A stretch of DNA of 64,000 nucleotides from an uncultured Bacteroidales bacterium (lineage in GTDB: Bacteria; Bacteroidota; Bacteroidia; Bacteroidales; Muribaculaceae): assembly GCA_902776435.1 (NCBI GenBank), contig CACYQB010000011.1:310001-374000 (forward strand), in the 5' to 3' direction. Below are positions 1 to 26,507 of this stretch, one piece after another. The position numbers and the translations under genes are program-made. Below the pieces are notes generated by a model. The model ran no database searches. It had not been told where the DNA came from and saw only the letters and a program-made list of their open reading frames with translations. The first letter of the stretch is position 1, and every line of letters starts with the position of its first letter.

Positions 1-1527
1 CTGCACGTAAGCGATGGTGTCATTTCCCATGACGAAGTATTAAAGGTTGCCAAATACATGTTTAATCATTACCCAAAATTACGTGATGTCGTAAAAGGCT
101 CGTACCCATTCATACTAATTGATGAATACCAAGATACCAGCCCATTGGTGATAGAAATATTACTTCACTCTTTTGACGAAGATGATAAGCGTCGAACTAT
201 AATCGGTTTTTTCGGCGACACCATGCAAGCAATTTATGATGATGGCGTTGGAGACATAGATACTTATAAGTATCCTTCGGGGAAAGTCTATGAAGTCAAA
301 AAGGAGCAAAATCGTCGTTCGCCCCAGGTTATTATAGACCTTGCTAACAAGATTAGGTTTGACGGGTTAATACAACGTCACTCTGAAGATTCTAATGCAA
401 CAAATATGAAAGATGGCCAAGTAAAAACAGGCAGGGCTTATTTCTTGTATTCAAACTCAGAATCAACAACCATTGATGATGTGAGGTTTTTTTTGCAAAA
501 TGAACAGGGGTGGGATTTTAGTAATCCCCAAACAATTAAGGAACTAAATCTAACGCATAGGCTAATTGCAGGAAAGGCAGGTTTTGCTACACTAATGGAA
601 ATACATAGCAGTGATGGAATAATGAAATATCGCGATAAGGTCCATAGATTTGTTAAACGACATGATGTTGACACGACAGATAAAACCTTTGGAGACGTTC
701 TTCATTTTTTAGAAAACACTTTTACTGATGATCGAACCAAAAGAGGCTTTTCACAAACTTCCGACATGGAGTCTTTTATCAATAACAATCAGGCATTATA
801 TCGACAGGCATTAGATTATTCATATGATGAGTTTATTAAAATGTATGTTTCAAATGACCAACTCATTGATGATAAAAAACAAGAAGAGGACGACAAAAGC
901 AAAACGGGTTCGAAACGATCAGAATTGGTTCAACATTTAATGAAGATAGAAAACTGCATTTATTTATATTCATGTGGGGAAGTCGGCGATTTCCTGAAAA
1001 TTACAGAGAAAAAGGTGTTAAGCATATCTGATAAGCGCACCTTACACGAGGCTATAGACCAATTAATCAACTCAAGTGAAATGAGAATTGGTGAGGTTAT
1101 AGACTTAGCAGATGAATTAGGTATCGTCAGAAAGGACGAAGCTTTAGAGCGATATAAGGAGCATAATCCCTATGTTTATTATCGTGTTATGGACGTCCCT
1201 TATAGGGAGGTGCAATCTCTATATAAATATTTGGAAGGCATGACCCCATTTTCAACTCAACATAAGACAAAAGGAGCTGAATATGACAATGTTTTTGTGA
1301 TTTTGGATAACGGGAAATGGAACAATTATAATTTTGAGAAACTCTTTACTGCATCAGGAGACGAACTTAATAATTCTGTCGTAAAACGAACACGAAAAAT
1401 ATTCTACGTCTGCTGTACTAGAACAAAAGAGAATTTAGCTGTTTTCTATCATCTGCCATCAAGGGATGTTCTAATAAAAGCTCGTGAATGGTTTGGCATT
1501 GATAACGTTATTTTAATATCAAAATAG
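1..1527 (+). CDS. UvrD/GajB-like superfamily 1 helicase, C-terminal part
   Basis: The reading frame is already open at base 1, so the N-terminus with Walker A lies outside the window. The visible part has a UvrD-type Walker B/motif II (ILIDEYQDTSP), a motif III-like region (GFFGDTMQAIYDDGVG) and a late motif resembling VI (KIFYVCCTRTKENLAVFYH). SF1 helicases of this size with DEYQDT are common in phage-defence loci such as Gabija (GajB), where an OLD nuclease sits directly upstream; that partner cannot be seen here. The next gene on the same strand is an AbiH protein, which fits a defence island. Helicase identity is confident; the Gabija assignment is speculation. Confidence 0.85.
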   Translation: MHVSDGVISHDEVLKVAKYMFNHYPKLRDVVKGSYPFILIDEYQDTSPLVIEILLHSFDEDDKRRTIIGFFGDTMQAIYDDGVGDIDTYKYPSGKVYEVKKEQNRRSPQVIIDLANKIRFDGLIQRHSEDSNATNMKDGQVKTGRAYFLYSNSESTTIDDVRFFLQNEQGWDFSNPQTIKELNLTHRLIAGKAGFATLMEIHSSDGIMKYRDKVHRFVKRHDVDTTDKTFGDVLHFLENTFTDDRTKRGFSQTSDMESFINNNQALYRQALDYSYDEFIKMYVSNDQLIDDKKQEEDDKSKTGSKRSELVQHLMKIENCIYLYSCGEVGDFLKITEKKVLSISDKRTLHEAIDQLINSSEMRIGEVIDLADELGIVRKDEALERYKEHNPYVYYRVMDVPYREVQSLYKYLEGMTPFSTQHKTKGAEYDNVFVILDNGKWNNYNFEKLFTASGDELNNSVVKRTRKIFYVCCTRTKENLAVFYHLPSRDVLIKAREWFGIDNVILISK

Positions 1528-14286: not shown

Positions 14287-14443
14287 GTCTTGTTCTTGTT
14301 ATAAAATGGTTAATAAAAATAGTTAGTTAAATCTCTTATATATAAGGGTTTAAAGTAAGAATGAAAAGAGGTGGAAAAAGGAGGTTTTTGTCGCTTTTTG
14401 TAATATAAAATCCATCTCTTTATGTTTGTCTGCAAATATTCCG

Positions 14444-14451
14444 TATCTTTG
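14444..14451 (+). promoter_or_regulatory. -7 box for the nuclease/protease pair
   Basis: TATCTTTG at 14444-14451 matches TAnnTTTG. Transcription should begin at about the ATG at 14456, which makes the mRNA leaderless or nearly so and rules out the longer ORF start at 14426. No good -33 TTTG lies at 19-21 bases. Confidence 0.6.
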
Positions 14452-14455
14452 CAAT

Positions 14456-15631
14456 ATGGCTGAAGGAGTGTATTACATAGGGTTATTACAAAGATGGCAA
14501 AATATAATTGCTGCTTATGAAGAATCTTTGAAGTGTTTTCTCGAGCAGAGCAGCCCTATCTGTCGTGAGTATGAAAGATCGAAACAACAAGATCAAGACG
14601 ATTCTTTTAATGTTTTCTACTTAATCTCAGACTTGTATTATCGAGAGAATTTTCACTCTGATATCATCGCTTTTTTGTTAGATACGCGGGAGAAGCATGG
14701 ATATGGGGCTGAATCTCTCTCAGTATTTATCTCCTTGCTAAACTCAATGGGTTCCGAGATAAAAATAGAAAACTATGTGGATGCTGTTGCCGTAAGAGAA
14801 GAGGGAAAGATTGATATTCTAATAAAATCAGAAAACAGCAAACATGTCATTATCATCGAGAACAAAATTAATAATGCAGGGGATATGCCTCGCCAATTGC
14901 CTCGTTACTATGATTATGTTACTGAATTGGGTTATCGGGTTGACGCTATCGTATATCTTCCATTAGACAACAATAAGAGGCCAGACATGAACGACTGGTC
15001 GAAAGATGATATCACAAAAGTCACTGAAAAGTTAATAACGGTACCAGCTTATGATAAAACTCATAAGAATCTAGTTAATGATTGGCTTCGTCCATTGGAA
15101 TCAATTACAAGTAGTGTCGATGTGCTTTCAACTCTTCGCCAGTATTCCAGATTAATAAAGCAATTAAATTCAAATAATATGGACACAGTTATCTTAAAGA
15201 AGTTTTATGACAGTCTTAAAAATGGAGACAACTTAGAAACGGCTATATCAATCCGTAATATGATAAATGATCTTCCAGGTTATTTAGCAATTTGCATTCT
15301 TAATAAGTTTAGTAACAGGTCTGCTCCGTTTTCTAAAGTATGGATTTATTCTTCCAATTATGTCGTTTTTGAAGGCAATATCAGCAATATCTATCTAAAA
15401 ATCAGTGTAATGTGTTCTGAGAATGGGTACGAAGTCACATTTGAGGCCCCTAAAGCCTATAACCCAGATATAAATATATTTCAAAGAATTATCAGCAATG
15501 TCGATTCATTAAAGGATTTCAGTCCAGTAGCGGATAGACCTACTAGCATTGTCAAGCATTTTGGTATTTTTGACGAATCAGGTCTATATGGTTTTATAGA
15601 TAGCATTTTGAAAGAATTAGCGGGTTTGTAA
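14456..15631 (+). CDS. PD-(D/E)XK nuclease family protein (PDDEXK_4-like)
   Basis: Residues 118-150 carry the nuclease core: Asp120 in GKIDILIKS, then Glu135-Asn-Lys137 in HVIIIENKINNAGDMPRQL, followed by the helix RYYDYV. The N-terminal ENFHSDIIAFLLD segment is also characteristic of PF14281, a family of stand-alone nuclease-like proteins common in Bacteroidetes defence regions. The remaining 230 residues form an uncharacterised C-terminal half. The ATG at 14456 is chosen from the promoter position. The next gene, a C39-like protease, follows after 42 bases on the same strand, suggesting a two-gene unit. Confidence 0.82.
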   Translation: MAEGVYYIGLLQRWQNIIAAYEESLKCFLEQSSPICREYERSKQQDQDDSFNVFYLISDLYYRENFHSDIIAFLLDTREKHGYGAESLSVFISLLNSMGSEIKIENYVDAVAVREEGKIDILIKSENSKHVIIIENKINNAGDMPRQLPRYYDYVTELGYRVDAIVYLPLDNNKRPDMNDWSKDDITKVTEKLITVPAYDKTHKNLVNDWLRPLESITSSVDVLSTLRQYSRLIKQLNSNNMDTVILKKFYDSLKNGDNLETAISIRNMINDLPGYLAICILNKFSNRSAPFSKVWIYSSNYVVFEGNISNIYLKISVMCSENGYEVTFEAPKAYNPDINIFQRIISNVDSLKDFSPVADRPTSIVKHFGIFDESGLYGFIDSILKELAGL

Positions 15632-17283: not shown

Positions 17284-17544
17284 TTAGTTGGATTTGGATT
17301 TTGACTTCTTGTATTCGCTGTAGGGCTTGTATTCACCTCTCTTCATCCCGAACATTTCAGCGTTTTTACTATAAGATCGATTCACTTCATATCTCAGTTT
17401 TTCCTTGTCATAACCCGTCGGAAGGAAGCGTGATTCGAGATAGTTTATGGCTTTCTCAATATCAATGCCGGCCTCACATAGTCCTTTAGCTTGGATGAAG
17501 ATGCCATGGGTTCTGTTTCCATCGATGTAATTTTCCTTAAACCC
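17284..17544 (-). pseudogene. C-terminal remnant of a VirE-N/BT4734-like gene (scar A)
   Basis: The minus strand from 17544 to the TAA at 17284 is an 86-codon open stretch with no plausible start, preceded by an in-frame TAG. It reads as the C-terminal region of a VirE-N/BT4734-like element protein: the family-typical GNRTHGIF segment, then ESRFLPTGYDKEKLRYEVNR, and a Lys/Ser-rich end. The bases between 17415 and 17470 closely match 25278-25335, where a second remnant lies. It is the broken end of a gene displaced by the cargo to its right. Confidence 0.6.
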
Positions 17545-17629: not shown

Positions 17630-18385
17630 CTAAAGTTCGTGTTCGGAATCAAGTCCAGTCTCGGGGTCAGTCTCGGGGTCAGGCTCGGGATCAGGTTCGG
17701 GATCAGGTACAGTCTCGGGGTCAGTCTCGGGGTCAGTCTCGGAATCAAGTCCAGTCTCGGGATCAGGTTCGGGATCAGGTTCGGGATCAGGTACAGTCTC
17801 GGGGTCAGTCTCGGGATCAGGTACAGTCTTGGGGTCAGTCTCGGGGTCAGTCTCGGGATCAGGTACAGTCTCGGGGTCTGTCTCGGGGTCAGTCTCGGGA
17901 TCAGGTACAGTCTCGGGGTCAGTCTCGGGGTCATGTTCGGGATCATGTTTAGATAGTTCTTCTTTTTTTAAAAGGGAAACGAGCAGTGAATTTGCTTTTT
18001 CAAGTAGCTTTAGATGATTATCTGCTTGATCTTTATTGGTGTTCTTGCACGCAATCGGATGTAGAACTTCTTCCAGATATTTTTCTGCGATATTATATTT
18101 CATCCTCTCTTCTTCACTCAAAGACACAGTCTTTTCTTCTTTTTCAGCATTCTCTTTAGGTGATTTATTTGTGGTTTCTATTTTTGATGAAGCCACAATA
18201 CAGACTAGTTCATATGCCAGGATACCAACCAGTATTGCTATAATCAATAGTACAACGAGAATAATAATCTCGGTTGTGATGTTAATGATTTCTTTAAAAT
18301 GGATTTTAAGATACATGTAGAAAGCTAGCACTATACATAATGCAATAGCTAAACACAACAATAGCCAGTTTTTATTAGTATTCAT
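17630..18385 (-). CDS. Two-TM protein with C-terminal Asp-Pro-Glu-Thr repeats
   Basis: 251 aa. Two hydrophobic segments at about residues 7-27 and 38-65 should anchor it in the inner membrane as a hairpin. A charged helical region (about 70-145) follows, then about 100 residues built from DPET, DPETVP and DPEP units. It starts 12 bases after the stop of the KAP NTPase gene and is almost certainly its operon partner. The repeat tail may be an extended, highly acidic spacer; the coding repeat can gain or lose 12-base units without a frameshift. Not recognised as a family. Confidence 0.78.
   Translation of the reverse strand: MNTNKNWLLLCLAIALCIVLAFYMYLKIHFKEIINITTEIIILVVLLIIAILVGILAYELVCIVASSKIETTNKSPKENAEKEEKTVSLSEEERMKYNIAEKYLEEVLHPIACKNTNKDQADNHLKLLEKANSLLVSLLKKEELSKHDPEHDPETDPETVPDPETDPETDPETVPDPETDPETDPKTVPDPETDPETVPDPEPDPEPDPETGLDSETDPETDPETVPDPEPDPEPDPETDPETGLDSEHEL
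17640..17945. repeat. Coding minisatellite, 12-base unit (DPET)
   Basis: About 300 bases are made of near-identical 12-base units (plus strand GTCTCGGGGTCA) mixed with 18-base units that add VP or GL. All units are multiples of three, so changes in copy number keep the frame. It encodes the C-terminal tail of the two-TM protein. Confidence 0.9.
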
Positions 18386-18397
18386 TTTCTAAAATTT

Positions 18398-21300
18398 TTA
18401 TGGTTTATAATAATTATCACTACGCAATAAAGAACTCTTAGCGAAAGAGTATTTTTTCAGATTCTCCATCTTCTTCTGCACATAACCATGATTCAGCAAG
18501 AAACGCTCAATAGCCAGATTGAGATAGTTGGAGTCATTATTTAGATCATCTTCTAGGAAGAATAACGTAGGCATCATTTCTTTATATGCTTTTCCAGATG
18601 TATGCATTTCAACTGCCCGGTTAAAGAAATCTATTGCATTTCCAGTCAAGTAACTACCAGTCAAGAAATTTATTTCATGAGCATGGAAATCATTGTTTTT
18701 ATCTTTATTATTATCGTTTCTATAAATATTGAGTTGCAAGTCGCCAAATGAATCAAACCACTTTACAAGCCTAACGTAATATTCGTCATTTTTGGGCGGA
18801 TAACGTTCCTTGAATTTCTCGATGTATTTATCTTTGTCCTGAATCTCAAGATACTCAGAAATTTCCCTCAGAGTTATCCATAAATGACTCCAATTAAAAA
18901 TCTTTTCATAGATTAATCCAATGTATGCATTGCTATACAGTGTAGTACTAAATAATGGCGCGATCAATTCAGTTATCTTGTTAAGACAGAATAATGTGTC
19001 ATTAACTAGATAATAGAGTACTTCCATTTTGTCCGTTTTTGTTGGATAATCATTCTTTACAATTTTCCACTCTAGTTCATCTATCAGATTCTTAAGATTA
19101 AACTTATTATAGTATTCGCTAAAATACTCCAACGTATTAATCAGGCTATGATGGTATCCTGAGAAAGCTTTTGACACATTTGGAATCATCATAGAAAGCA
19201 GTTCATCATTAACAATCACTTTAAAGTACATGTTTTGAATGTTTTGCGTTAAGGTAGCAATCAATTTGTGCTGCCCCAGTTGTCTTGAATTAATTACATT
19301 CTTCAACGTCTGGTTTCTTACGTCAGTCTTACCCAACATACACAAACGATAATACTTCTCGGTGACTACTTCAATTTCAGGAAATGAACTTAAGTTATGT
19401 AAATTGATATTTTCAGATTGCTTTCTCCCCATTTCATGCTTTAGTGTATCAATTTCTTCACAATTGATGCAATCATAATGCAGGTAGGTACAAGTGATTG
19501 CTTGCTCTGTAATTACTTCACAAAACCGCAAAGAATATTTGTCGATAATGTCATCAGAAACCGCACAAGAATAGGCAAATACAGCATCAAGGATTTGAAT
19601 GTAAATATTATAAGCTAATTTATAATCAGTGAGAAGCTCATAAGTTCTAGCTGCCGCCAAGTAGTATAGAATAGCCTTCGAATAAGGATTCATCACATTT
19701 GCATGCTTTAATTGCTCAATAGCATCAAATGAGACATCCGAGTAACCTTTATGGAAAAAGCCTTCAAGCGTCAAAAAGAAATTTTGAATAGTAACATCTG
19801 CTGCATCTTCCTTAATACAGCCCAATAGCGTATTACCCATGCCTACAAGCAGGTTCGCCATGGTGAGCATGAATACATTTCCTTTTCGCATTACATCTTG
19901 ACAACCTTCAACCTTGAAAAGCAAATCGATGAAAAAAAGTGATCGGCTCTCATCTGTGTATTTCTCCGAGTCTCCATTAAGCTCTTCAAGACATGCGCTG
20001 ATGCTTTTATTGAAACATTGGCATGCAATACATGGTGGATTAATCGTTTTCTCGCCTTTGTTTTGTTGATCCACTATGAATACTTTACAGTATTTAAACT
20101 TATCCTTCAGATGAGCACCCAAGCCCAACTGATTTCTGAATAATTCTACTACTTCGTTAAATTTGCCTCTTGTTAATATCTCGTGAGCAAACACTCCATT
20201 TTTATAATATAAGATGTCTCCAAGTTTTTTGTAAAATTCAATTATTAATACAGGCCTTATTTCATCATTACAAAGCCATCTTTGGATGCAATTAAACTCA
20301 TTGTTCAACACTTCGAGATCTTTTATCCTTATACCTCCCATCCCCATCTTTTCCAAGACAGCGACCTTGGCAAGAACGCATAAAATGCTTATCCGCACAT
20401 TTGTGAAAAACGAAGAATTGCTTCTCAATTCATCATTTATTTGGCTTCCGAAATAATCACGAGGGGCGTTTACTATTGCCAAGATTAGTTTCTCGATATT
20501 CAAATAGGTATTATAGGCTGTGTCAAACGTTTTTCTCTTTTCATAGGCTAAAGCAAGTTTCAGCGAGACACGAATCCGAAACAGCACATTAGTCGCATCT
20601 TCCATATTAGATTGTGACGCTTCATCTTGCCTTAAAACCGCATTAAGAGCCTCATTGAATTCATAAATTGCCTGTTCGTAATTTTCCTCAAGCATATAGA
20701 TATCACCCAATGCGTGATGAATGCTGGCAATTGCAGGTGCTTCGTTCTGCATTCCCTTATAATGCTTGAGTTGTTGTTGATAGAGTTTCTTGATAGAGAG
20801 CAATTCGTCATGCGAGAAATTGAACAAGAAAGATACTTCTTCTGATGACTTGGAAAAATAGGTTATCTCTTCTGAAAGCCGTTGAGGGAATTTGAATCTA
20901 TAGAGATTTATCGTAGCCTCATCTATATGGGTTTGATTCAAAAATTGCATAATGCCTCCAATAAAATCTCTCAACTCAGGCATCTTGTTGATCTCCAACA
21001 ATTCAGGCATATACTCAAGATTTCTCCATGAAAAACCAGACTTATGGAATTTATACAAGTTTGATATCATGAATGATGTTGCGACGAGTAACTTATCGTT
21101 ATAGATACTTGATTTGGCAATCAAGTTTTTTATCATAGGGTAAATCAAGTAATTGACAAACTCTATTTTCTGCATATTGCGAGCATCGAAAAACAGGAAC
21201 CAATTACATTTATCCCAACAGTCTTTGGCGCCTAAACTGAGTTGTTTTATTTCCTCTTTTTTTGTGCCATAGTGCCTCAAGTTGATTTGCTCTTCAACTC

Positions 21301-23101
21301 GGTCTTTGCTACGAATATATTTCTCAAGATACATTGCAAGTTTCTTAGGCGAGCCATTACTCATATAGAAGAGATAGGTCAAGAAATGGCGCAAAAAATT
21401 AATTCGTCGCTCCAATAGCATTTCAAACAAGGGGCGGTCATTATCATCAAAGTATTTGTTAATTGAAGTATCCCATTTTTCTCGAACGGCTTTGGCATAA
21501 AGACTCAAATCTTGGCATTTGCAGTTGTTCGTCTTTTTCTTAAAGTTTTTGCTGAGCAGCATATGGCAAAGGTATTCTTCAATCATAGAATCTGCGCCAG
21601 AATCTTTTCCTGTTTTCCTCAAGAAACTGCTGACGTTGATGTAGCCATTAAAGATGCTATGAATATTAAACTCGCGGCTAGATATATCAGATAATGTTGT
21701 TTCATACATATCGTATCCCGTGATGAAAATAAATTTTGCCTCCGAGCTAGATATGAAATATTTCAAGTTGGCCAATAACTCAGCTAAAGCTTTCTGTCTG
21801 CTACGATAAGTTGAGTTGCCTTTCACTGAGTTGGTGTATTCAAACTCAGGAATTGTCTGCGTTTCCAAATCCTCTGGCGATACTTTGTCCAGTTCATCAA
21901 TTATGAAAATGAATCGAAGGTTGCTTGACGGCATCCTGTTAATTAATGAGAGCTGATCCACAAGCAGGTCCTGAATCTCTGTTGTCTGGGCTATGGGATA
22001 GAAGATCTTCTTGTTTTTGAAACGTTGAAATCCCCATTTTACACTTTCAGTATCCATTTTGCTCTCCACTTGGCCATCAACTCCATTTTGAGTGGTGATA
22101 GTTGTGTCACTTTCTATTCGCTGAAGTATGTGCTTAAAATTTCTTCTTATCTGCCATTTGGTGATGAAAATACTTGAGCCTGTCAATTCATAACAAAAAA
22201 AGAAAATCCGTCTGATAAAACAACACGTGAAAAGTGCTATGAAAAACAGCACATCTTTGAATTGAAACAAGTCTCTGAGGTATGATAAATTGCAGTTTTC
22301 AACACTCGTTTTGTATAGTCCAAGCCATTTATATACAATAAAATGATACAGGTAACTGACAATGCCAATAAAACTTTCTAAAAGTTGTTCTATACCTTGA
22401 ATCAGAGTCACTTTCCCATGGCTAGATGTAAACAAATAAAACATTAATCCAAATAAAGCCAACCTGACAAGCTGAATAGAGTTACTACACAGCAAGTAGT
22501 CAATGCTTCGCCAAGCTTCTTTCCATCTAAATGTGAATACATTTTTTATAAACCGAAGTAAGCGCTTGATGAAATATAAAGTTTTGTGATATAAGCTATT
22601 TGCGGTTAACTTAGTGTCAATTCTGGTATTCTCATCATAGGATTTATTCAACAACCTGCAAATAATATACAATAATTCGCGACTTGTCAATAAATCGTTA
22701 CCAACATTAATGGAGATCGGTACATATTTCTTTTTCGTTAGTTTTTTTGTTTGAATCTCGTGAATTGCTTTATGAACAAAAGAACTTTTGCCCATGCCCC
22801 TAAAGCCTGTGATTAAATATGCTCCTGAATATTTTGTTTTATGCCTTCTATTATCCTCTCTTGCATCGTAGAGCCATCCTTTCAGTTTGTCAATGATACT
22901 CTCACGGCCGATAAAGTCTTCAAATTCTTCTTTTGAATCGGTGCTGCTAGCATGATGAAACCCATTGAAACCCATCAATGGAATAATCACTTCGTGCATC
23001 TTTGAATCATAACTGCTGTCGTACATAATGGTATCTTTATTGCAATCAGGTTCGTCGGCATCCAACCACACTTCACCTGGGTTTATAATAATGCATCCCA
23101 A
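18398..23101 (-). CDS. Giant KAP-type P-loop NTPase with inserted membrane segments and TPR-like C-terminus
   Basis: 1567 aa. Walker A is GFRGMGKSS at residues 99-107, and Walker B is FIFIIDELDKVSPED at about 397-411. Between them lie about three hydrophobic segments (about 209-225, 240-262 and 281-304). A membrane insertion inside the P-loop domain together with an IDxLDxxxPE Walker B is the signature of KAP NTPases (the Kidins220/ARMS and PifA group; PifA blocks phage T7 on the F plasmid). The C-terminal 1,000 residues are helical, with TPR-like stretches (ALGDIYMLEENYEQAIYEFN near 800) that would suit a sensor. The start is TTG at 23101, 17 bases after the predicted transcription start; ATG at 23026 is the alternative. 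It is followed after 12 bases by the two-TM DPET-repeat protein. Confidence 0.8.
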   Translation of the reverse strand: MGCIIINPGEVWLDADEPDCNKDTIMYDSSYDSKMHEVIIPLMGFNGFHHASSTDSKEEFEDFIGRESIIDKLKGWLYDAREDNRRHKTKYSGAYLITGFRGMGKSSFVHKAIHEIQTKKLTKKKYVPISINVGNDLLTSRELLYIICRLLNKSYDENTRIDTKLTANSLYHKTLYFIKRLLRFIKNVFTFRWKEAWRSIDYLLCSNSIQLVRLALFGLMFYLFTSSHGKVTLIQGIEQLLESFIGIVSYLYHFIVYKWLGLYKTSVENCNLSYLRDLFQFKDVLFFIALFTCCFIRRIFFFCYELTGSSIFITKWQIRRNFKHILQRIESDTTITTQNGVDGQVESKMDTESVKWGFQRFKNKKIFYPIAQTTEIQDLLVDQLSLINRMPSSNLRFIFIIDELDKVSPEDLETQTIPEFEYTNSVKGNSTYRSRQKALAELLANLKYFISSSEAKFIFITGYDMYETTLSDISSREFNIHSIFNGYINVSSFLRKTGKDSGADSMIEEYLCHMLLSKNFKKKTNNCKCQDLSLYAKAVREKWDTSINKYFDDNDRPLFEMLLERRINFLRHFLTYLFYMSNGSPKKLAMYLEKYIRSKDRVEEQINLRHYGTKKEEIKQLSLGAKDCWDKCNWFLFFDARNMQKIEFVNYLIYPMIKNLIAKSSIYNDKLLVATSFMISNLYKFHKSGFSWRNLEYMPELLEINKMPELRDFIGGIMQFLNQTHIDEATINLYRFKFPQRLSEEITYFSKSSEEVSFLFNFSHDELLSIKKLYQQQLKHYKGMQNEAPAIASIHHALGDIYMLEENYEQAIYEFNEALNAVLRQDEASQSNMEDATNVLFRIRVSLKLALAYEKRKTFDTAYNTYLNIEKLILAIVNAPRDYFGSQINDELRSNSSFFTNVRISILCVLAKVAVLEKMGMGGIRIKDLEVLNNEFNCIQRWLCNDEIRPVLIIEFYKKLGDILYYKNGVFAHEILTRGKFNEVVELFRNQLGLGAHLKDKFKYCKVFIVDQQNKGEKTINPPCIACQCFNKSISACLEELNGDSEKYTDESRSLFFIDLLFKVEGCQDVMRKGNVFMLTMANLLVGMGNTLLGCIKEDAADVTIQNFFLTLEGFFHKGYSDVSFDAIEQLKHANVMNPYSKAILYYLAAARTYELLTDYKLAYNIYIQILDAVFAYSCAVSDDIIDKYSLRFCEVITEQAITCTYLHYDCINCEEIDTLKHEMGRKQSENINLHNLSSFPEIEVVTEKYYRLCMLGKTDVRNQTLKNVINSRQLGQHKLIATLTQNIQNMYFKVIVNDELLSMMIPNVSKAFSGYHHSLINTLEYFSEYYNKFNLKNLIDELEWKIVKNDYPTKTDKMEVLYYLVNDTLFCLNKITELIAPLFSTTLYSNAYIGLIYEKIFNWSHLWITLREISEYLEIQDKDKYIEKFKERYPPKNDEYYVRLVKWFDSFGDLQLNIYRNDNNKDKNNDFHAHEINFLTGSYLTGNAIDFFNRAVEMHTSGKAYKEMMPTLFFLEDDLNNDSNYLNLAIERFLLNHGYVQKKMENLKKYSFAKSSLLRSDNYYKP

Positions 23102-23416: not shown

Positions 23417-23524
23417 CCTTAATCACTAGACAGGAGGTTGGTGAGCTATAAGTCCCAAAAAAATCGGGTTATAGCTCACTTTCTCATTTCAAACCTGCCG
23501 AATCATACTAAAAACACCTCTTTG

Positions 23525-23592
23525 CGGCAGAATATAGTACGTTATATTTTGCCGATTTGATACTTTTTACTACCTTTGCGGCAGAATATAAC
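23525..23592 (+). promoter_or_regulatory. Promoter with palindromic operator, copy 1
   Basis: TTTG (23548-23551), 19 bases, TACCTTTG (23571-23578) is a full Bacteroidetes promoter. An inverted repeat CGGCAGAATATA / TATATTTTGCCG (23525-23536 and 23543-23554) covers the -33 element, and a third half-site CGGCAGAATATAAC (23579-23592) starts just after the -7 box. A protein bound to these sites would block the promoter. Confidence 0.7.
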
Positions 23593-23610: not shown

Positions 23611-25050
23611 ATGAGCGCAATCATCGGAAGAAAACAGGAAATGGAAGAGCTCGAAAGGCTCTACAGGAGTGACCGGCCTGAATTTGTGGCCGTGTATGGC
23701 AGACGGCGTGTCGGGAAAACATTCTTGATCAAGCAAGCATTTAAAGACCGTATCACTTTCCAGCATACGGGTGTATCTCCCGTTGACCAGGATGACGAGA
23801 AAAGCCGAATGAAGACCCAGTTGGAGAGCTTCTATTATTCCATGCTGAATCATGGACTTGAGGGGTTCAAGATGCCCAAGTCCTGGATGGAAGCATTCTA
23901 CCAGTTGGAGCAGCTGCTTGCAGGCTTGGATGACGGCAAACGCCAGGTAGTGTTCATCGACGAAATGCCATGGATGGATACTCCGCGTTCCGGCTTCCTT
24001 CCCGCTTTTGAGAACTTCTGGAACGGTTGGTGCTCTGGTCGTGATAACATGATGCTCATTGTCTGCGGCAGTGCTACCTCCTGGATTCTTGGGAACCTGT
24101 CCCGGAGCCGTGGGGGGCTTTACGGGCGTTTGACAGATGAAATCAAACTGATGCCCTTCACGCTGAAAGAATGTGAGGAGTATTTTGAGGGTGAGGGTGT
24201 AGAACTGTCCCGTTACGATATCGTGCAGAGCCACATGGTGTTTGGTGGCATACCGTACTATCTCAGTTTCTTCAGGAAAGGAGAGAGTTTTGAGAAGAAC
24301 ACCGACCGGATTCTTTTCGGGCGCAATCCAAGGCTGAAAGACGAGTTCAACCGCTTGTTTAATGCCATCTTTGGTAATCCCGAGGATTGCAAAAAGATTA
24401 TCCGCCTGCTTGCGACTCGTCATAACGGTTTCACACGGGAAGAGATTGCTAAATCCACCGGGGTACCACTCGGTGGAGGGCTTTCAGATACACTTGCGGC
24501 CTTGGCTGAGAGCGACTTCATTTTACGTTATATGCCCTACCGCCAATCCAAAGTCGAGCACTATAAACTCATTGATAACTTCTGTCTTTTCTGGCTGAAA
24601 TATGTAGAACCCAACCTGACTGATGTGGATTTCATGACCGACAATATCACTTCTGATGTGATGAGGTCCTGGAAGGGTGTGGCTTTTGAGGAGGTCTGCT
24701 GGCAACATAGCACTCAGATCAAACGCGCTCTTGAAATTGGCGGCGTCAAATCATCCCTGTCTGCTTGGAGCGTTAAAGGTGATGAAGAAAATGAGGGAGC
24801 CCAGATAGACCTTCTTATCAACAGGGCCGACAACGTGGTAAACCTTTGTGAAATGAAGTTCTCCGGTGGTGAATACGTGATCAGCAAGGACGAAGAGAGC
24901 AAACTCCGAAACAGAATTGAAATGCTTAAAAAGACTTTGTCCCCCAAACAGACTGTTCATCTCACCATGATCACGACTTACGGTGTTGCATACGGTAAAC
25001 ATAGTGGCATCGTCCAAAAGCAAGTGGTTATGGACGATCTTTTCGAGTGA
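23611..25050 (+). CDS. AAA ATPase with C-terminal DUF234/nuclease-like domain
   Basis: 479 aa. Walker A is GRRRVGKT (30-37), preceded by FVAVYG. Walker B is VVFIDEMPWMD near 113-123, and sensor motifs LIVCGSATSWI and GGLYGRLTDEI follow. A winged-helix part (NGFTREEIAKSTGVPLGGG) leads to a C-terminal domain with a PD-(D/E)XK-like pattern (GAQIDLLINR, then LCEMKFSGGEY). This is the archaeal/Bacteroidetes ATPase plus DUF234 family, found in many copies per genome, function unknown. The gene is more GC-rich than its neighbours, which suggests separate acquisition. It is bracketed by two copies of the same operator block. Confidence 0.85.
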   Translation: MSAIIGRKQEMEELERLYRSDRPEFVAVYGRRRVGKTFLIKQAFKDRITFQHTGVSPVDQDDEKSRMKTQLESFYYSMLNHGLEGFKMPKSWMEAFYQLEQLLAGLDDGKRQVVFIDEMPWMDTPRSGFLPAFENFWNGWCSGRDNMMLIVCGSATSWILGNLSRSRGGLYGRLTDEIKLMPFTLKECEEYFEGEGVELSRYDIVQSHMVFGGIPYYLSFFRKGESFEKNTDRILFGRNPRLKDEFNRLFNAIFGNPEDCKKIIRLLATRHNGFTREEIAKSTGVPLGGGLSDTLAALAESDFILRYMPYRQSKVEHYKLIDNFCLFWLKYVEPNLTDVDFMTDNITSDVMRSWKGVAFEEVCWQHSTQIKRALEIGGVKSSLSAWSVKGDEENEGAQIDLLINRADNVVNLCEMKFSGGEYVISKDEESKLRNRIEMLKKTLSPKQTVHLTMITTYGVAYGKHSGIVQKQVVMDDLFE

Positions 25051-25106
25051 GTAAACAATATCTCACTTTTTTCAATTATCACGAGTAACTCTATCACCCT
25101 CATTTA

Positions 25107-25173
25107 CGGCAGAATATAATATATTATATTTTGCCGAATCGATGCTTTTTGTGCTCTTGCGGCAGATTATAAG
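25107..25173 (+). repeat. Promoter/operator block, copy 2 (decayed)
   Basis: Downstream of the ATPase the same arrangement recurs: CGGCAGAATATAAT (25107-25120), ATTATATTTTGCCG (25123-25136), and a third half-site CGGCAGATTATAAG (25160-25173), at the same spacing as copy 1. The -7 box has decayed to TGCTCTTG. No gene follows that would use it, so it is either the other end of a cassette or the promoter of a lost paralogue. Confidence 0.7.
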
Positions 25174-25222: not shown

Positions 25223-25395
25223 TCATTCGTTTTTATCAGATGATCTTAGGTTAATAATCTGATTAATTTTCCCATCATATCCCGTTGGAAGGAAACCTGA
25301 CTCGAGACGGTTTGTGGCTGCTTCAATATCTGTATTCAAGACACATTTATAAAAACCAGAGCCGGGAATATGGAAAGAAGAAAACCGAGTCAGAT
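25223..25395 (-). pseudogene. C-terminal remnant of a VirE-N/BT4734-like gene (scar B)
   Basis: The minus strand encodes a fragment containing NRLESGFLPTGYDGKIN, matching scar A in both protein (ESxFLPTGYD) and DNA (CCCGTYGGAAGGAA and CTCAATATC-like blocks). The fragment lacks a start and runs into unrelated frame on both sides. It lies just before the promoter of the next cargo gene. The repetition of the same gene end at 17284-17544 and here suggests that cargo was inserted at, or recombined through, this gene. Confidence 0.5.
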
Positions 25396-25435
25396 TTCTT
25401 TTTGTGATTTTGCTTACTATATCAAAGAAATGCAT

Positions 25436-25443
25436 TAACTTTG
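25436..25443 (+). promoter_or_regulatory. -7 box for the ATPase/TOPRIM-like pair
   Basis: TAACTTTG fits TAnnTTTG and ends 5 bases before the ATG at 25449, so the mRNA should be leaderless. This placement excludes the longer ORF start at 25404. Confidence 0.6.
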
Positions 25444-25448
25444 CAATT

Positions 25449-26507
25449 ATGAAACATATCAAGATACGAAATTTGGGCCCAATCAAAGAGGCTGATATTG
25501 AATTGAAGCGAATCAATGTAATCATTGGTCCGCAGAGTTCAGGTAAAAGTTGTGTCCTGAAAACCGCTTGTTATTGTACCTGGGTAGAGAAGCGTATTGA
25601 ACTGACTCAGTCAGCAGATTTCTTTGCGAAAGACGGTAACTTCACAAAGGAATTTGAGCGTTTTCACAAGTTGAAAGGATATATCAAACCTGATACCTTT
25701 ATCAGCTATGAGTCTGAATTCATGTCTTTTTCATTTGATAATGCTTCAAACAAATTCAATTTTAAGTGGAAAGAAGGCAGATGGGACTACCATCGCTCCA
25801 AAGTGACATATATCCCCGCCGAGCGCAATCTTGTTGCAGCTATTCCAAACTGGTTCCAAGTCAAATTTGCTGATGACAATATTCGTGACTTTATGGCAGA
25901 TTGGGAATCTGCCCGTCAAGCGACGAAAGAAGATTTAGAGGTTTTAAATCTTGGAGTGTCTTACAGATATGATGCTGCTACAAAGTCTGATAAAGTTCAG
26001 GTATCCGAAGGCGTTACACTTGACTTTACCAATACATCAAGTGGTTTACAGTCAGTCATTCCGTTGTTTATACACCTTAGTCATATCACTAACATTAGGC
26101 ACTCAAGGATAGAGAGTTTTGCAAATTTACAAGAACAAGGAGTTTTGTTAGCGAAATTGGATGAGGAGGATAAGAAAGATGTCTTTACGAACTATGTTCA
26201 TACTCATCATTGTGATATCTTTTTGGAAGAGCCTGAAGCTAATCTTTTTCCTCCGACCCAGGCAAACCTTGTGGAATGGCTGTTGACTAAGACTGAGGGC
26301 AAACATCCCAATAGTCTTTTTATTGCTACTCATAGTCCATATATTTTAAATGCCTTTATTGAGAAGCAAGAGATTGATATGACTTTGTTGTACACCAAAA
26401 CTACTGATGATGGTTTTATGACAGTAAAGAGCGCCATAGAAGAAGATATTCAGGCTATATATGACTTTGGTGTAGATGCATTCTTTAACATAGAGACCTT
26501 AGGCTGA
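25449..26507 (+). CDS. ABC-type ATPase (AAA_15/AAA_21-like), first gene of a defence-like pair
   Basis: 352 aa, starting MKHIKIRNLGPIKEADIELK. Walker A is IIGPQSSGKS; a signature-like SSGLQSVIP and Walker B CDIFLEEPEANLFP follow, then SLFIATHSPYIL with the switch histidine. This is the SMC-like/RecF-like ATPase group used in OLD, PARIS, Septu and AbiEii-type systems. It carries no nuclease domain of its own; the next gene, one base away, supplies a candidate TOPRIM-like effector. A two-gene ATPase-effector defence unit is the most natural reading. Confidence 0.82.
   Translation: MKHIKIRNLGPIKEADIELKRINVIIGPQSSGKSCVLKTACYCTWVEKRIELTQSADFFAKDGNFTKEFERFHKLKGYIKPDTFISYESEFMSFSFDNASNKFNFKWKEGRWDYHRSKVTYIPAERNLVAAIPNWFQVKFADDNIRDFMADWESARQATKEDLEVLNLGVSYRYDAATKSDKVQVSEGVTLDFTNTSSGLQSVIPLFIHLSHITNIRHSRIESFANLQEQGVLLAKLDEEDKKDVFTNYVHTHHCDIFLEEPEANLFPPTQANLVEWLLTKTEGKHPNSLFIATHSPYILNAFIEKQEIDMTLLYTKTTDDGFMTVKSAIEEDIQAIYDFGVDAFFNIETLG

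Follow-up and report, generated by a model that had tools for sequence, protein, structure and literature searches.

A giant KAP-like membrane NTPase and a small transmembrane partner form a recurrent, probably immune gene pair in Bacteroidota

The gene pair and the architecture of the NTPase

A gene pair on the minus strand of contig CACYQB010000011.1, from an uncultured Muribaculaceae bacterium of the order Bacteroidales (assembly GCA_902776435.1), encodes a giant nucleoside triphosphatase (NTPase) resembling the KAP family and a small protein with two predicted transmembrane helices. It lies in the window, the stretch of 64,000 nucleotides (nt; contig positions 310,001 to 374,000) to which the coordinates of Table 1 refer. 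On balance, and with some reserve, we favour reading the pair as a two-gene immune sensor or switch of the inner membrane. A sequence-only reading of the window had proposed a membrane-linked defence system here, and reading of the open reading frames (ORFs) confirmed both of them, along with the strand and the gap of 12 bases between the NTPase gene and the downstream partner gene. It gave the large protein 1567 residues, the length obtained from an in-frame TTG at 23101, which would add 25 residues upstream of the ATG at 23026. The ATG is the most likely start, since two close homologues, in genomes G328 and G212, share the N terminus MYDS(R/K)YDSK with the window protein, and the length is corrected to 1542 residues.

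Table 1. Coordinates of the gene pair and its predicted parts in the window (aa, amino acids; TM, transmembrane; pTM, predicted template-modelling score).
Feature	Position	Strand	Basis
KAP-like giant membrane NTPase, 1542 aa	18398..23026	-	ATG start, Pfam, close homologues
Walker A GFRGMGKS, residues 74-81	22784..22807	-	motif scan, 64-sequence alignment
Helical insert with hydrophobic (putative TM) helices, residues 115-305, between Walker A and Walker B	22112..22684	-	hydropathy; model of low confidence in parts
Walker B region FIIDELDK, residues 374-381	21884..21907	-	motif scan, 64-sequence alignment
NGSPKK motif, residues 557-562	21341..21358	-	alignment
All-helical TPR-like solenoid, residues 715-1542	18401..20884	-	AlphaFold model (pTM 0.89), Foldseek
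Partner, 251 aa: N-terminal two-TM hairpin, then long polar tail	17630..18385	-	ORF, hydropathy
Partner two-TM hairpin, residues 8-26 and 40-58 (both strong)	18212..18364	-	hydropathy
Tandem repeat coding the acidic DPET tail of the partner, in frame	17656..17945	-	repeat search

Relatives of the NTPase were sought in contigs. A scan with the single protein as query returned none; an alignment-based scan reported 109 relatives, and 78 loci were studied, or 77 once L051 was omitted as identical to L050. The window protein was aligned with those of 63 of the 77 loci (the 14 omitted were split, truncated or duplicate). In all 64 sequences G77, G79 and K80 of Walker A are invariant, as is the DELDK of Walker B, the latter partly by construction because the scan that located the loci used a DELD pattern. 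Between the two motifs, where the sequence-only reading saw about three transmembrane segments, hydrophobic helices are indeed present, but the hydropathy profile has one strong peak (residues 259-277) and three weaker ones. Among the 61 loci in which both Walker motifs were detected automatically, the number of hydrophobic helices between them is even (2 to 8) in 45 and odd (1, 3 or 5) in 16. Given these counts, and because both motifs must face the cytosol, the window insert is predicted to hold two real transmembrane helices.

An AlphaFold model of residues 1-745, built from a 43-row alignment, has a mean predicted local distance difference test score of 76 and a pTM of 0.75, with low values in parts of the insert. 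No PDB entry matched the model of residues 1-745 at E ≤ 0.001 in Foldseek; an ORC chain, two chains of RdrA from RADAR and one from a BrxC-BrxB-PglZ entry are among its first four ranks. A second model, of residues 700-1542 (52 rows), is almost entirely helical, and the best matches of this solenoid of about 830 residues are TPR-type solenoids (such as SKI-complex chains and LGN), at low TM-scores. Together with Pfam, these results uphold the long TPR-like C-terminal region described earlier. Cysteines 980, 999, 1002 and 1070 of the solenoid are each conserved in at least half of the aligned sequences and may form a metal site. In locus L062 a C-terminal hydrophobic stretch had raised the suspicion of an NTPase-partner fusion, which was rejected on reading the protein tails. 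The NTPase gene of genome G061 (L024/L044) is split into two ORFs by an in-frame stop codon, while the partner ORF there is open.

Relationship to KAP and STAND proteins

KAP membrane NTPases were reportedly described in 2004, with transmembrane segments between Walker A and Walker B. By hydropathy and model, the window NTPase has the hydrophobic insert that this topology requires, and it matches KAP_NTPase (PF07693) at 21.4 bits over its full length and 20.3 bits with its N-terminal part, against a Pfam cut-off of 20; matches to NACHT, AAA_22 and TPR all fall below their cut-offs. Among 43 relatives, 42 match AAA_16 and 16 match KAP (E ≤ 0.01). A profile-profile comparison with canonical KAPs gave an alignment of just 68 columns, around the P-loop (probability 94.9). 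Seven canonical KAPs from related genomes carry GxWGSGK[ST] (7/7), DDLDR (5/7) or DELDR (2/7), and NPRxxKR (5/7), a motif set from which GFRGMGKS, DELDK and NGSPKK of the window protein depart; NGSPKK may be the counterpart of NPRxxKR. None of these seven has a hydrophobic insert between the Walker motifs, so the feature is not universal. The KAP assignment of the sequence-only reading thus fits in topology and is marginal by score, and it is not borne out by the motifs, the extent of alignment or most relatives. Because of the marginal score, the departing motifs, the 68-column alignment and the AAA_16 matches of 42/43 relatives, the protein, an AAA+/STAND-like NTPase, is described here as KAP-like, a predicted remote relative of KAPs that is not filed among them. 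It may nevertheless work like PifA or Tmn.

The domain order seen by Pfam, model and Foldseek, with a P-loop NTPase first and helical repeats after it, is also that of STAND/Avs-type proteins. A STAND/Avs protein devoid of membrane insertion, the outcome that the sequence-only reading had named as contrary to it, is not what was found: the hydrophobic insert is present, and no PADLOC model matched the NTPase or the partner at E ≤ 1 (the Avs content of the model library being unchecked).

A recurrent and fast-diverging partner

A gene was counted as a partner if it lay on the same strand, -40 to +60 nt from the NTPase gene, and encoded at most 420 aa with at least one predicted transmembrane helix. 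In a tree of 75 NTPases (7 of the 77 loci were left out; the identical pair L104/L185 is contained), the window protein belongs to a clade of 30 members with support of 0.974, which includes close kin (L045/L046 and L068/L070/L108). One member, L095, was excluded from the partner test as its NTPase lies too close to the contig end. A partner is found in 21 of the 29 testable members, 15 downstream and 6 upstream of the NTPase, and always within 25 bases of it. Co-occurrence elsewhere, the test named in advance by the sequence-only reading, is therefore borne out. Among 184 random genes encoding 250 aa or more, drawn from 20 stretches of eight genomes, 28 have a neighbour that fits the rule, and in a second control 85 of 437 genes in the flanks of the loci do so. 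When at least two transmembrane helices are required, the counts are 18/29 clade loci and 9/184 random genes. Fisher tests give 9e-10 against random genes and 5e-9 against flank genes, values that overstate the case because the clade loci share ancestry. The NTPase and its small transmembrane partner are a real, recurrent pair.

The small protein might instead be a mere neighbour of an NTPase that acts alone, as described for Tmn. Such a reading would account for the eight clade members without an adjoining partner (L116, L058, L065, L062, L076, L052, L089 and L069); in L076 the start of the NTPase is overlapped by a longer protein of TIR/SLOG type that has predicted transmembrane helices, and L052 has a small transmembrane gene that does not adjoin the NTPase. 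It would also fit the relatives outside the clade, where only 5 of 45 sequences (one identical pair included) have a partner (L059, L084, L118, L119 and L120). We regard it as quite unlikely in view of the excess that the clade shows over random genes, with distances of no more than 25 bases and both gene orders represented.

The partners are small transmembrane proteins, many of them, by eye, with coiled-coil-like or low-complexity parts, and the hairpin lies near the N terminus in some and near the C terminus in others. Within the subclade of the window, partner identities of 18-34%, over partial matches, stand against 53-67% for the NTPases; L068 and L070 share 83% of their NTPase residues and 47% of their partner residues. 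An apparent near-absence of similarity among partners proved to be an artefact of the low-complexity filter and was discarded. With the filter off, partners of the window subclade show weak similarity, as do some pairs beyond this subclade, and the partners are therefore treated as fast-diverging relatives. No Pfam SLATT match was found in the partners of the window, L044, L045, L047, L048, L049, L070, L071, L072 and L090.

The two-helix partner with an acidic repeat tail described by the sequence-only reading was recovered as such (Table 1). The tail is encoded by a tandem array of 6.9 copies of a 42-base unit, and the repeat pattern has 9 matches in the window, against 0 in 100 shuffles. As a trait of partners in general, the repeat did not stand: none of the other 20 partners compared contains DPE[TP], of which the window partner has 18 copies. 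Partners of L071 and L072 have acidic stretches without this repeat elsewhere in the chain, and part of the window tail weakly matches the L072 partner (28% over 110 residues). Transcript folding 3′ of the partner gene revealed nothing (z -0.54).

Effector-type genes in the runs of relatives

A run was defined as same-strand genes with gaps of up to 100 nt. Effector-type genes occur in the NTPase run of 11 of the 30 clade members (L045, L046, L058, L067, L068, L070, L072, L074, L076, L090 and L182), a count made without a control. The run of L067 contains a GmrSD_N protein, and those of L045 and L046 a protein similar to it; L045 also has a patatin upstream. A PHP protein in the L070 run matches PDC-M49A (E 1.8e-248), and a similar protein is present in L068. 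The run of L090, on the same contig as L026, comprises a metallophosphoesterase, DO-GTPase2, DO-GTPase1 and GAP1-N1. SLOG cluster 3 is matched above its cut-off and TIR_2 below its cut-off in L076, an AbiLi/AbiLii-like pair lies upstream in L072, an FRG gene is found 63 nt away in L074, and a helicase-KAP protein 50 nt away in L058. By eye, the run of L182 includes an AAA ATPase and an HNH-like protein; neither gave a PDB match. Outside the clade, L119 carries a patatin and an Exo_endo_phos protein 3′ of its partner. The remaining run members of L053 and L071 have no Pfam match, and one in L116 has a non-effector match (Band_7). When neighbours were clustered in search of a shared third gene, no cluster recurred beside most copies. 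Bare pairs are seen in the window, L044, L047, L048, L049, L080 and L184.

The presence of effector-type genes in the NTPase run is the layout of conflict systems, and it is the strongest support, beyond the reach of the sequence-only reading, for an immune role of the pair, which is probable. These neighbours also bear on how immunity would be exerted. The pair could be immune through superinfection exclusion or a block to genome entry at the membrane, rather than through killing of the infected cell; the predicted membrane segments of both proteins and a window run without an enzymatic gene would suit this. We think it rather unlikely, as in relatives the pair is coupled to enzymes characteristic of abortive responses.

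As an observation in its own right, the AAA ATPase and HNH-like genes of L182 (11776-15119) overlap, lie directly 3′ of the NTPase gene and are followed by mobilisation-like genes; by eye they are Septu-like.

Genomic setting and distribution

The setting of the pair in the window is defence-like. An AbiH gene (1605-2909), a PDDEXK_4 gene (14426-15631; PDC-S26), an ATPase_2 gene (23611-25050; PDC-S27) and an AAA_15 gene (25404-26507; PDC-M29A) lie in it, as do two tyrosine recombinases. The ATPase_2 gene is a weak pointer to defence because its family is many-copied in the genus, with matches in 15 of 21 genomes and up to 12 in one. This gene is flanked by direct repeats (23517-23591 and 25098-25172; 82%) with internal inverted repeats. 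A second pair of segments, of about 56-72 bases and 80% identity (17407-17479 and 25274-25345), encodes the same peptide remnant FLPTGYD and flanks the block that holds the gene pair and the ATPase_2 gene; the remnants may derive from a single older gene that an insertion split or duplicated.

NTPase relatives are patchily distributed, in about 1-3% of sampled Bacteroidales genomes. Searches with the single protein matched 4/397 genomes of the family and 8/393 of the order, counts that, like those below, include the own or centre genome; besides the own genome, the latter comprise 3 long relatives and 4 short weak matches. Alignment searches matched 13/395 genomes of the phylum (the own genome, 1 long relative and 11 short weak matches) and 3/349 and 4/104 genomes in two further families. 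Most of the 78 loci have Bacteroidota titles; the others include some Nitrospirae, Kapaibacterium, Ignavibacteria, Calditrichia and Fibrobacter-type bins, and Firmicutes titles are few. Not all of these labels can be trusted, since L050 and L051 are one identical contig that appears both in a bin titled Bacteroidales and in one titled Lachnospiraceae, which probably reflects faulty binning in the public records.

An acyltransferase-like gene and an RluD-like gene flank the pair in the close relatives L048 and L049, with extra small genes in between in L049. Among 30 loci around that acyltransferase in the genus, one (L195, genome G212) carries the NTPase and 10 have RluD within reach without it, with 140-1407 nt between the match ends and the same orientation in 9; in the remaining loci RluD falls outside the stretch examined. 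The window's own genome is among the 10 with an empty site. Because it lies empty in 10 of the 30 loci, the pair is taken to be an accessory insertion there.

Weighing an immune role

Several observations weigh against an immune pair. The defence-like neighbours noted by the sequence-only reading are present in the window, but the nearest relatives (L047, L048 and L049) stand beside housekeeping-type genes, outside defence islands. PADLOC enrichment among the neighbours of relatives is modest: at E ≤ 1e-20, 94 neighbours from 27 loci matched 45 models, against 13 for 94 of 272 random proteins, and the true contrast is smaller because models rather than proteins were counted and PtuA variants make up many of the 45. 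To these are added the lack of any PADLOC match for the two proteins themselves, the absence of a third, enzymatic gene from the window run, the clade members and outer relatives without a partner, and a search of plasmid, phage and viral-contig collections in which no NTPase relatives were found.

Six relatives (L052, L062, L066, L072, L074 and L184) lie near polysaccharide-type genes, which also tells against immunity; the genes that follow were named by eye. A WbuC-like cupin gene adjoins the NTPase gene or lies two genes away in L062, L074 and L184, an MBOAT-like gene lies 18 bases downstream in L052, and sugar-transferase-like genes are at most six genes away in L062, L066, L072 and L074. 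The pair might accordingly regulate or assemble surface polysaccharide or other envelope parts, with the NTPase as a membrane scaffold and the effector-type neighbours coincidental in variable loci. This is unlikely: the polysaccharide-type genes vary between loci and were noticed in these six only, and in other relatives effector-type genes overlap or lie close by. Polysaccharide loci are, moreover, common insertion sites in Bacteroidales.

For the favoured immune sensor or switch, sequence and models establish an intact P-loop NTPase core split by hydrophobic helices, a solenoid and, in most clade members, an adjoining, fast-evolving transmembrane partner; we infer all mechanistic steps beyond this anatomy. 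The solenoid, perhaps with the partner tail, would recognise a product of phage or plasmid invasion, NTP binding would drive assembly of the NTPase in the membrane, and the transmembrane hairpins of NTPase and partner would form the output. For a bare pair such as the window copy, the output would most likely be loss of membrane integrity, as proposed for PifA. In relatives with extra genes it would be passed to nucleases, phospholipases, TIR/SLOG or GTPase modules.

Comparison with known systems

The sequence-only reading knew of no described system with this pair, and none was found in the open-access literature searched. The pair is a new form of the membrane KAP-type systems, a kind that is already known. 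PifA of the F plasmid, which acts on phage T7, is a KAP-family member, and we know of no partner gene for it; the window protein differs in being only a remote KAP relative without any PADLOC match.

PifA is reported to sense phage proteins and to kill by depolarising the membrane, in a paper that doubts immunity as its main role (PMC8594841). Tmn is an anti-phage KAP-family NTPase with two transmembrane domains (PMC11846954). The window protein is likewise an NTPase with predicted transmembrane segments, but Tmn is a single NTPase, whereas the window system adds a TPR-like solenoid and a fast-evolving second transmembrane protein, a comparison made by description only. QatA of qatABCD is a KAP-family NTPase, similarly tied to other genes of an anti-phage operon, and its loss does not fully disrupt defence; its partners differ, being QatB, the QueC-like QatC and the TatD-type QatD (PMC12424860). 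The likeness to RdrA of RADAR is weak (core Foldseek E 6.5e-3, TM-score 0.20; profile E 0.0072), with a convincing sequence alignment over the P-loop only, and RdrA acts with RdrB, the bearer of deaminase sites (PMC9994260).

GTPase-centric conflict systems with DO-GTPase and GAP1-N1 genes often include a transmembrane component; calcineurin-type phosphoesterases are common in GAP1-N1 systems, and two-TM SLATT proteins are present on several occasions (PMC7159879). The layout of L090 is similar, though no scanned partner matches a SLATT model, and the window copy has none of their genes. Published work also places KAP NTPases next to Orc/Cdc6 genes in counter-invader loci (PMC10853773) and describes them taking the place of STAND domains (PMC8195603).

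More broadly, and only tentatively, the family could represent an undescribed immune platform of Bacteroidota, in which a giant KAP-like NTPase threaded through the membrane, equipped with a TPR-type sensor and a hypervariable adaptor of two TM helices, would act alone at the membrane or drive swappable effectors (GmrSD nuclease, PHP, patatin, AAA-HNH, TIR-SLOG or GTPase/GAP1), the rapid change of the partner reflecting direct contact with invader proteins. The mechanism of Tmn is still called unexplored (PMC11846954). A widespread two-component relative with a separable transmembrane partner and several natural effector couplings would make it possible to study sensing, membrane assembly and output separately, in Bacteroidales of the gut and rumen.

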